This document shows positions 22,525 to 30,119 of a stretch of 36,741 nt of DNA, piece by piece (position 1 is the stretch's first letter; each line of letters opens with the position of its first letter). The position numbers and the translations under genes were made by a program. The DNA lies in the NCBI GenBank assembly GCA_017414645.1, contig JAFQLL010000003.1, positions 1-36,741 on the forward strand, read 5' to 3'. Source of the DNA: Clostridia bacterium (lineage in GTDB: Bacteria; Bacillota; Clostridia; UMGS1883). Below the pieces are notes generated by a model. It did no database searches. It had not been told where the DNA came from and worked only from the letters and a program-made list of their open reading frames with translations.

Positions 22525-24585
22525 ATGGACAAAAAGTACGAAGCGTTGTTTACCCCCTGGAAGATAGGCAACGTGGAAATCAAGAACCGAATTGTAATGT
22601 GCCCCATGGGCGGCACAAGCCTTTTTGGCTGGTTCGAATTGACAGGCTGCCATTTTGACAAGGAGGCGGCAAAGCTTTTCTTAGAAAGAGCAAATAACAA
22701 TGTTGGGTTAATTATCCCCGGCATCGCGCCTCTTCGTGACACCTTCTGGGGAAAGTGGCTCTGGCAGAACCCCAAAATGTTTGAGGATTTAAAAGAATTT
22801 ATGGACGAAATTCATAAAACAGGGGCGAAACTGTTTATTCAGCTTACAGCAGGCATGGGCAGAAGCTGGGCGATAACCGAGCTTGTGGCACCTCTTCATA
22901 AAAACAAAATAACACGTGCACTTATTAAGCCTGTTATCGACACAAGCCATGAACTGGCAAGCCCCAGTGAACAGCCCTCGCGCTGGGCACACGACATTAT
23001 CTGCCCCGAAATGACAAAGGAGCAGATTGAAGAAATTATTGAAGCCTTTGCCAAAACCGCTAAGCTTTGCCGTGATGCAGGCGTTGACGGCGTTGAAGTG
23101 CACGCTGTGCATGAGGGTTATCTTTTAGACCAGTTCGCAATTGAATTTTTCAATAAGCGCACCGACGAATACGGCGGCAGCTTCGAAAACCGTTACCGCT
23201 TTGCAGCTGAGGTTGTTAAGGCAATTAAAGAGGCGTGCGGAAGTGACTATCCCGTATCGCTCCGTTATTCCGTAGAGAGCAAAATGAAGGGCTTCTGCGA
23301 GGGCGCAATGCCCAATGAAGATTACATCGAAGTTGGCAGAAGCATGGAGGAAAGTGAAAAGGCTGCAAAGTTTTTAGAGGACGCAGGCTACGACATGTTA
23401 AACGCCGACAACGGCACCTACGACTCCTGGTATTGGGCGCATCCGCCGATGTACATGCCACAGAACTGTAATTTAGAGGATGTAGCTCACATTAAAAAGT
23501 TTGTAAACATTCCCGTAGTATGTGCAGGCAGAATGGAGCCTGACGTAGGTGCACAGGCTGTTAGTGAAGGCAGAATTGATGCAGTTGGTGTTGCACGCCA
23601 GTTCCTTACTGACCCTGCGTGGATAACAAAGCTCATTGAAGACAGATTAGAGGACATCAAGCCCTGCATCTGCTGCCATAGCGGCTGCTTCAATTTCTCA
23701 TCTTCCAAGGGTCACGCAAATACACAGGACTTAACCGACACAATGGGGCTTGCCCGCTGTGCCCTTAACCCCGAAACAATGCAGTCGAAAAAGTACAAGG
23801 TTACAAAGGCTAAGAAGGTTAAGAAGATTGCGGTTATCGGTGGCGGTATAGGCGGTATGGAAGCTGCAATACTTCTTAGTAAGCGCGGCCATAAGGTAAC
23901 CCTTTACGAAAAGACAGATAAATTAGGCGGTGTATTCATTGCAGCAGCGGCACCATCCTTTAAGGAAAAGGATCGTGATTTAATTGCATGGTACATACGT
24001 GAAATTAAAAAGCATCCCATTGAAGTAAAAATGAATATGGAAATTAAGGACATAACCACCCTTGATGCAGACGAGGTTATTGTTGCAACAGGTGCTACTG
24101 CAAAGCGTATCCCTGTAAAGGGCGCAGAAAAATCAATAGAAGCTGTTGACTACCTTCTTGGCGAAAAGATGGTTGGCGACAAGGTTGTTGTTATTGGCGG
24201 CGGTTTAACAGGCTGCGAAATTGCATACGATTTGTACCTTAAGGGCAAAACCCCTGTTATTGTTGAAATGCAGGACGATTTGGTTACAACCCCCGGTGTG
24301 TGCCTTGCAAACACCAGCTACCTGCGTGACTTCTTTAAGACAAATAAGGTGCAGGTGCATCTTGAAACAGCCCTTTGCTCCATTGAAGATGGCGGCGTAA
24401 CAGTTAAAGATAAAAACGGCAAGGAATTTAAAATTGATGCCGACAGCACAATTATGTCGGTTGGCTATAACCCCAACCCTATTGCAAAGAAGAGCGGCAA
24501 GGTGCACGTTATCGGCGATGCTAAAAAGGTGGGCAACTTAAGAACTGTTATATGGGGAGCATGGGATGTATGTATGAAGCTGTAA
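22525..24585 (+). CDS. NADH:flavin oxidoreductase of the 2-enoate reductase/BaiCD type
   Basis: A 686-residue, three-part enzyme. Residues 1-370 are an Old Yellow Enzyme TIM barrel (FMN) with [14 protein letters not shown], the form with Glu after the second His that is typical of enoate reductase/BaiCD relatives. Cys381, Cys384, Cys388 and Cys412 are candidate [4Fe-4S] ligands; 23 residues separate the last two, more than the usual 11-12. Residues about 430-686 contain two dinucleotide folds, [13 protein letters not shown] (FAD) and [13 protein letters not shown] (NADH). Such enzymes reduce activated C=C bonds. AAGGAGG decides the ATG at 22525. A perfect 17-bp hairpin spans the stop. Substrate unknown; see the aconitase X neighbours. 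Confidence 0.92.
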
Positions 24586-24601
24586 GCTTCATACATACAT
24601 C
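24565..24601 (+). repeat. Perfect 17-bp hairpin spanning the flavoenzyme stop codon
   Basis: Left arm 24565-24581 and right arm 24585-24601 are exact complements around a 3-nt centre; the stop TAA is at 24583-24585. It lies at the left edge of the hairpin-linker array and may belong to it. Confidence 0.75.
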
Positions 24602-24780
24602 AACTGAGTTTGCCATAAATGGCAAGTGAAGTTATCTTCGATAGTGAAGTTGCCTGACGGCAGTGAAGTTTCGGCTAACGCCGAAGTGGCAAACTGAACT
24701 TCACTTTCTGTGTGGGATATACAGAAAACTTCACTGTGAGTTTACTCACAACTTCACTTTTGCGACAGCAAAAACTTCAC
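24602..24780 (+). repeat. Hairpin-linker array A (linker GTGAAGTT / AACTTCAC)
   Basis: GTGAAGTT occurs three times (24626, 24644, 24663) and then its reverse complement AACTTCAC four times (24697, 24727, 24750, 24773). Between them lie short hairpins with unrelated stems: TTGCC/GGCAA, TATC/GATA, TGCC/GGCA, TTCGGC/GCCGAA, TTTCTGT/ACAGAAA, TGTGAG/CTCACA and TTTTGC/GCAAAA. GTTTGCCA at 24608 can also pair with TGGCAAAC at 24687. The array fills the gap between the flavoenzyme and aconitase X genes. Not a CRISPR: the spaced sequences are self-complementary and 9-23 nt. Confidence 0.8.
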
Positions 24781-26566: not shown

Positions 26567-26595
26567 GTGCAGAATGCAAAATGCAGAACGCAGAG
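26567..26595 (+). repeat. Heptamer-type dispersed repeat, copy 1
   Basis: Four 7-nt units directly after the stop codon: TGCAGAA, TGCAAAA, TGCAGAA, CGCAGAG. The same ordered block, three bases different, follows the groES stop (28297-28328). Confidence 0.75.
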
Positions 26596-26604
26596 TTAAT
26601 GAAA

Positions 26605-26638: not shown

Positions 26639-26665
26639 GTGCTGATATTCAACAGTTAGGTTATT

Positions 26666-26729
26666 GCACCAGTGGGGACGTACACTTTTGGTGCAAATTT
26701 GTTCCAAAAGTGTACGTCCCCACTGGTGC
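26666..26729. repeat. Perfect 26-bp inverted repeat
   Basis: Left arm 26666-26691 begins GCACCAGTGGGGACG and right arm 26704-26729 is its exact complement, around a 12-nt loop. It lies between convergent genes. The GTGGGGACGT core resembles palindromes dispersed in Firmicutes genomes and sometimes associated with Y1 (RAYT) transposases; no transposase is in this window. It has no U-run typical of a terminator. Confidence 0.8.
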
Positions 26730-26731
26730 GT

Positions 26732-28296: not shown

Positions 28297-28328
28297 AGTG
28301 CAGAGTGCAAAGTGCAGAACGCAGAATG
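28297..28328 (+). repeat. Heptamer-type dispersed repeat, copy 2
   Basis: Units TGCAGAG, TGCAAAG, TGCAGAA, CGCAGAA, 12 nt after the groES stop. Same unit order as 26567-26595. Confidence 0.75.
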
Positions 28329-28334
28329 AAGGAT

Positions 28335-30119
<1,785 letters not shown>

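Follow-up and report, generated by a model that had tools for sequence, protein, structure and literature searches.

A linker-and-hairpin array in a Clostridia genome, probably belonging to a dispersed foldback DNA family that includes the catalogued Gut-1 RNA

Organization of the array and of its surroundings

The window analysed here is a stretch of 36,741 nucleotides of a Clostridia bacterium genome (contig JAFQLL010000003.1). At 24602-24780, flanked by a flavoenzyme gene with Oxidored_FMN and Pyr_redox domains and by an aconitase X gene, it carries an array in which three GTGAAGT and four ACTTCAC linkers separate seven hairpins. The initial annotation, made from the sequence alone, had described a constant linker alternating with variable self-complementary inserts and switching orientation midway. 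This build is real and is repeated in other copies: the copies of GTGAAGTT (at 24626, 24644 and 24663) and of AACTTCAC (at 24697, 24727, 24750 and 24773) are exact, and the linker words, counted on both strands of the whole window, occur 9 times for 1.45 expected, a count reached in none of 100 shuffles. The linker is constant as described, but its length is better taken as 7 nt than as the 8 nt first proposed, since base eight closes each stem. All seven inserts are self-complementary, though one (24633-24643) is weak, forming no pairs alone as RNA and 3 bp when the whole array is folded as DNA. The inserts of the left half are the shorter ones, which gives the element a polarity. A perfect inverted repeat of 17 bp, overlooked in the initial annotation, spans the flavoenzyme stop codon and ends exactly at the left edge of the array. 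The features are as follows, all on the forward strand.

24565-24601: perfect inverted repeat, 17 bp (24565-24581 / 24585-24601), abutting the left end; a repeat is likewise placed in 45 of 62 further copies
24602-24609: L0-like segment AACTGAGT; usually AACTAAGT in the family; CGATAT copies have a complete linker here
24610-24625: hairpin H0, whose 5' arm is also able to pair with the centre
24626-24632: linker L1, GTGAAGT
24633-24643: hairpin H1, weak (RNA and DNA folds)
24644-24650: linker L2, GTGAAGT
24651-24662: hairpin H2 (folds)
24663-24669: linker L3, GTGAAGT
24670-24685: hairpin H3 (folds)
24686-24697: centre, with segment c, a 9-bp partial complement to the left end
24698-24704: linker R1, ACTTCAC
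24705-24727: hairpin H4 (folds)
24728-24734: linker R2, ACTTCAC
24735-24750: hairpin H5 (folds)
24751-24757: linker R3, ACTTCAC
24758-24773: hairpin H6 (folds)
24774-24780: linker R4, ACTTCAC, right end
24601-24674: match to the whole Rfam Gut-1 model, 41.5 bits (cut-off 50)

Folded as DNA, the array lies far below its shuffles (z -7.5 on the forward and -6.9 on the reverse strand) and pairs L1:R4, L2:R3 and L3:R2, one step shifted relative to the consensus of the CGATAT family described below. Folded as RNA, the segment 24586-24840 reaches z -5.2 against shuffles. An ordinary tandem repeat was rejected, the array being unreported by Tandem Repeats Finder. The T-run of a Rho-independent terminator is missing from 24602-24780, where five T never occur in a row, and no RNA of the window reaches its Rfam gathering score (one RNase P does among 13 loci scanned).

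Other repeats are found elsewhere in the window. A degenerate second array, with small hairpins and spacer words resembling AATTTATG / AATTAATG, follows a terminator-like repeat at 28355-28450. Runs of GTGCAGA-like heptamers lie after genes at 26567-26597 and 28297-28328, similar to those at a gene end of a sister genome (L316), and a long inverted repeat around CCAGTGGGGACGTACACTTTTGG at 26665-26730 represents another type of intergenic repeat.

A family of dispersed, two-armed copies and its relation to Gut-1

The search suggested by the initial annotation, for one word spaced by hairpins in this and related genomes, uncovered a family. The pattern AACTTCAC-N7..35-AACTTCAC has 70 matches in this 2.1-Mb genome (G000) and none with the reversed control. 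It occurs in 8 of 61 related genomes, but 6 of 61 is a fair count: G010 and G045 have one apparently accidental match each, and stray hits of the reversed control turned up in five genomes. When 292 genomes of the class were searched with a stricter left-end pattern, 8 had it, this one among them (control 0). A scan of named genomes returned at least 119 stretches, by title mostly from gut Clostridia. At least L072, a CTTCACT-type repeat from Butyrivibrio, has to be set aside as not being an element, and probably L086 and L166 as well. Twelve contigs classed as viral also match the linker pattern; of these, L190 and L195 look like arrays and L193 is a repeat within coding sequence. BLAST of one copy each against phages and plasmids gave no match, and no such element was found in the main texts of the open-access literature on repeats, foldback elements, quasipalindromes, introns and the IVP protein treated below.

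Several sister families share the plan with other linker words (CGATAT, GCGATAT, TGAAAT, TGAATT, GTTATAT and GCTAAAT), inverted between the arms; the GCTAAAT family was discovered solely through IVP genes. Arms with ATATCG words give 28, 42, 28, 49 and 7 matches in G000 to G004, respectively (control 0). A word-blind arm finder applied to the gathered loci detected 444 arms and 133 adjacent pairs, falling to 6 arms and no pair after block shuffling; these counts are from its third version, the two earlier ones having been too strict and having lost known copies. Together with the word counts in the window, this result led us to reject a chance origin. Among the 133 adjacent pairs, 110 have inverted words, 5 direct words and 18 different words, several of the last being neighbouring arrays or register errors; the true exception is L151, in which the words of the two arms differ by one base. 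The order LLLRRRR is the commonest elsewhere (44 of 109 oriented unique clusters, two of which are false). The words thus stay inverted-complementary across families, which bears out the earlier suggestion that left and right halves can pair, and they fit pairing as well as the binding of both arms by one protein. In some copies, belonging to two linker families (L031:5377-5536, L221:4978-5180 and L314), an insert like CCCTGAGCGAAGCGAGGAAGTACTCTTGGGG separates H3 from the centre. At L091:2489-2952, twenty ATATCAC words run in one direction, about 2.1 kb from an SRP RNA gene (97-364).

The initial annotation knew of no named element with this build, yet the array is not without a name, since the left arm of the window copy aligns with the whole model of Gut-1 RNA (RF01706, positions 1-77 of 77) at 41.5 bits, below the curated cut-off of 50. 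Hairpins set between repeated words, GTGAAAT in Gut-1, are a further common feature. Gut-1 matches of 34-43 bits are present in 15 of 20 short loci, and the gene end of another copy in this genome (L036) has counterparts scoring 60.7 bits in G004, 55.6 in G002 and 45.2 in G003. Of the 61 genomes, 21 have Gut-1 matches at E <= 0.001, 13 of them above the cut-off, for one below the cut-off among 14 control genomes. A second arm is present in at least 5 of the 12 Gut-1 loci shown. The 77-nt Gut-1 model hence corresponds to a single arm of an element that has two and measures about 175 bases. The element differs from the model by its second, inverted arm, its several linker words, the dispersal of its copies, its DNA-like pairing and the gene that some copies carry. 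The 2010 paper that includes Gut-1 presents it as certainly an RNA and probably not cis-regulatory, its table giving human gut only (PMC2864571). A search by the name Gut-1 retrieved no paper among the openly accessible main texts.

Copies are dispersed with sharp ends in unlike flanks, as expected of MITE or foldback elements. Over 14 CGATAT copies, mean identity is 0.77 within the element and 0.58 and 0.59 in the flanks (shuffled, 0.57); between two copies of one genome (L340 and L341) it is 0.95 within the element for 0.59 and 0.64 outside. The position between the two genes was correctly described, but the element is not tied to their operon: it is dispersed, and the aconitase X locus of a sister species (G002), with the same gene pair, lacks it. 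In G002, the orthologous site (L235:1420-1490) carries a different hairpin repeat instead.

In 45 of 62 copies, the left edge is where an inverted repeat of 8 bp or longer ends; the same holds for 1 of 186 control positions taken 60-250 nt past the right end. The upstream stop codon lies inside this abutting repeat in 14 of the 37 of these 45 cases with a stop in reach. Among copies with an upstream ORF, 49 of 56 share its reading direction; the downstream gene has mixed orientation (34 forward, 25 reverse), and 5 of 59 copies overlap a predicted ORF. The position after genes and the mixed downstream orientation could suggest that the arrays terminate or insulate transcription. This role is highly improbable: a T-run of at least five is present in only 9 of the 45 abutting repeats, arrays also lie just upstream of IVP genes, and many orthologous gene ends do without one. 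For 38 orthologues of 12 gene ends, an array is present in 15 (none with the GTGAAGT word), no array was detected by the finder in 21 of the 36 readable ends, and 2 are too short; by eye, three of the 21 (L257, L260 and L273) have degenerate arrays, and two members of the set, L261 and L266, come from one genome (G003), so that at most one of them is a true orthologue. One gene end is often occupied by different families, which could also reflect an old resident feature.

No target-site duplication was recognised by eye at the few filled and empty sites compared. At two gene ends (L031+ versus L319 and L043- versus L318), the hairpin next to the element has a 3' arm that repeats the gene end in inverted form and is missing in an empty orthologue. 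This observation would suit a neutral by-product, palindromes being made and kept perfect at gene ends by replication template switching with no machinery of their own, as would the report that template switching can yield perfect stems and multi-base paired changes (PMC8794818). Such an origin is improbable, since it accounts neither for the common plan, the identical linkers of each element and the words shared genome-wide, nor for near-identical copies in unlike flanks and the IVP gene.

Pairing as DNA or as RNA

The stems vary and remain paired. In five hairpin slots they are 85-96% Watson-Crick, a figure that drops to 50-62% once each 5' arm is combined with the 3' arm of another copy, and each slot holds 33-47 distinct inserts among 43-61 copies. 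The initial annotation had reasoned that conserved stems and linkers in relatives would point to an ordinary structured RNA; the plan is conserved and the linkers are conserved within a family, the stems are not. In the CGATAT family (15 copies), both-side changes affect 112 cells for 36 in shuffles, none of 500 shuffles reaching 112, and at most 21 when slid; the number of pair types is no higher than in shuffles (48 vs 47.7). The consensus fold of this family is a nested tree pairing L0:R4, L1:R3, L2:R2 and L3:R1, with small hairpins at the junctions, and the first base covaries in three of the four linker pairs. In one orthologous pair, with flanks 84.5% identical over 2447 nt upstream and about 80-83% downstream, H0, H1 and H2 are identical, H4, H5 and H6 have one paired substitution each, and H3 is replaced. 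The left end, H0 and the centre covary jointly in single copies, both pairings being exact in only 36 of 73, which is a lead only.

Covariation of this kind is commonly taken as proof of a functional RNA. Gut-1 is catalogued in Rfam as a small RNA, and a small RNA or a 3'-UTR element on the strand of the upstream gene would explain the paired changes by RNA folding, the co-orientation with the upstream gene and the RNA fold of the window copy. The asymmetry between wobble pairs expected of RNA is missing, however. Among 588 cells of the CGATAT family, with the structure taken from one copy, G.U occurs 12 times and A.C 11 times; in the SRP RNA of 15 related genomes, the counts are 213 and 8, with the reservation that these 15 were hand-chosen among 25 fetched loci and that a consensus-predicted SRP structure favours standard pairs. 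G.U represents 2.4% of standard pairs in the element and 18.7% in SRP RNA (Fisher p 3e-23), about eight times less, and the ratio of one-side to both-side changes is 11:112 for 93:180 (p 3e-8). With consensus structures on both sides, at mean pairwise identities of 0.72 and 0.73, the element has 6 G.U and 4 A.C. The GTGAAGT family alone gave 11 G.T and 7 A.C, for 30 and 17 in terminator-like hairpins, a set too small and a control too weak for a powerful test, for which reason the CGATAT alignment and the SRP control were used.

The loops also bear on this question. Among perfect triloops read on one strand, TNC accounts for 92 of 138 in the left arm and GNA for none, and GNA for 45 of 90 in the right arm and TNC for none, so that both arms have the same type of loop, but on opposite strands. 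Opposite loop types argue against an RNA, and a left end that always lies against a gene-end hairpin would produce the orientation bias as well. A structured RNA is therefore an unlikely explanation. The pairing looks DNA-level, on the comparison of one family (CGATAT) with one RNA control (SRP), and strong covariation without wobble asymmetry suggests that folded DNA may have been catalogued here as an RNA family.

A candidate partner protein and the proposed nature of the element

In some copies, a gene for a four-helix protein of PF05635 (23S rRNA-intervening-sequence protein, IVP) lies directly behind the right end. PF05635 has 43 matches listed in 20 of the 61 genomes, 39 of them above the cut-off, and none in 14 control genomes. 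An array lies at most 410 nt from 21 of these 43 genes, 19 times upstream; in the controls, this holds for none of 22 SRP genes and for 1 of 117 windows located at a distance of more than 900 nt. Of the 19 upstream arrays, 15 are two-armed by word order, and in the eight loci printed the array is upstream and on the same strand as the IVP gene. The finder detected no array at the other 22 IVP genes; it misses some, since L385 and L410 have Gut-1 matches alongside. IVP genes occur without array in G005, G015 and G021, and G004 (73% complete) has Gut-1 matches and no IVP match. Occupation differs between relatives at single gene ends: at that of L043, G002 has an array and an IVP gene, G000 and G001 an array and G003 nothing; at that of L031+, G000 and G002 have an array with IVP, of different words, and G001 and G003 no array.

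IVP is thus a candidate partner of the element from its gene neighbourhood. PF05635 is described as homologous to Avd of diversity-generating retroelements (PMC10053308), and the retroelement of a Bordetella phage depends on a DNA hairpin or cruciform close to the end of a gene, in which the stem sequence can vary and the loop follows GRNA (PMC3240598). The resemblance has limits: a single hairpin is described there, for seven with linkers in the array, and array triloops are often GNA, not GRNA tetraloops. Reverse transcriptase is present in 5 of 8 genomes and absent from G003, G012 and G028; as G003 and G012 are at least 93% complete and rich in arrays, a retroelement route is unsupported in these two. 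In G025 (C9:47839-49354), a reverse transcriptase lies near a below-cut-off PF05635 match with no array, perhaps an ordinary diversity-generating retroelement. The Y1 transposase (PF01797) received no support as a partner: it does not track the element, being present in 8 of 9 genomes, including the element-less G005 and G007, and absent from G002; six fetched loci show no clear array, L328 having three ATATCG words within about 100 nt.

Other known systems share part of these features. Intervening sequences of 23S rRNA are also short selfish elements with an S23-type gene (PMC4990558); those described lie in 23S rRNA, whereas the arrays are dispersed at gene ends and mostly gene-less. REP/BIME sequences with RAYT are likewise intergenic and numerous, with palindromes maintained by complementary changes and inverted pairs, and were proposed to be non-autonomous elements (PMC2817692). 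REPs, as described there, share a stem sequence and a short fixed tag, whereas array stems share none and the constant word sits between hairpins. Bacterial-C (group IIC) introns insert right after a hairpin or terminator (PMC8919778), as the arrays follow a repeat, but no intron RNA family was matched in the loci scanned and the element is 175 bp long, mostly without a T-run.

Taken together, these comparisons make it probable that the array is a copy, without a gene, of a foldback DNA element present at dispersed sites; the catalogued Gut-1 RNA would be one arm of this element and IVP a candidate partner. The element is conserved in shape, symmetric between strands and dispersed, and from comparison we infer its mobility and the role of IVP. 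The DNA would extrude on each strand as a trunk of linker pairs bearing small hairpins at four-way junctions; this branched fold would be the recognised form and the linker word the address of the family. Copies with an IVP gene would be candidate complete elements on which the others depend, IVP possibly binding the array hairpins as an Avd relative, and the stems may be kept perfect by recognition of the fold, by template switching, or by both. More tentatively, and with rather less confidence than in the foldback element itself, the family might represent a class of mobile DNA defined by its folded shape, with changeable stems and linkers, the word as a swappable address, and an Avd-like IVP reading DNA hairpins.

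The element of gut Clostridia keeps its folded shape while its letters change. The comparison of G.U with A.C could be used on other orphan RNA candidates. The link with IVP provides a testable substrate for this protein family and a parallel to the DNA hairpins of diversity-generating retroelements. If the definition by shape is true, Gut-1 would be a DNA element classed among RNAs, and there would be a substrate for the orphan IVP/S23 family.
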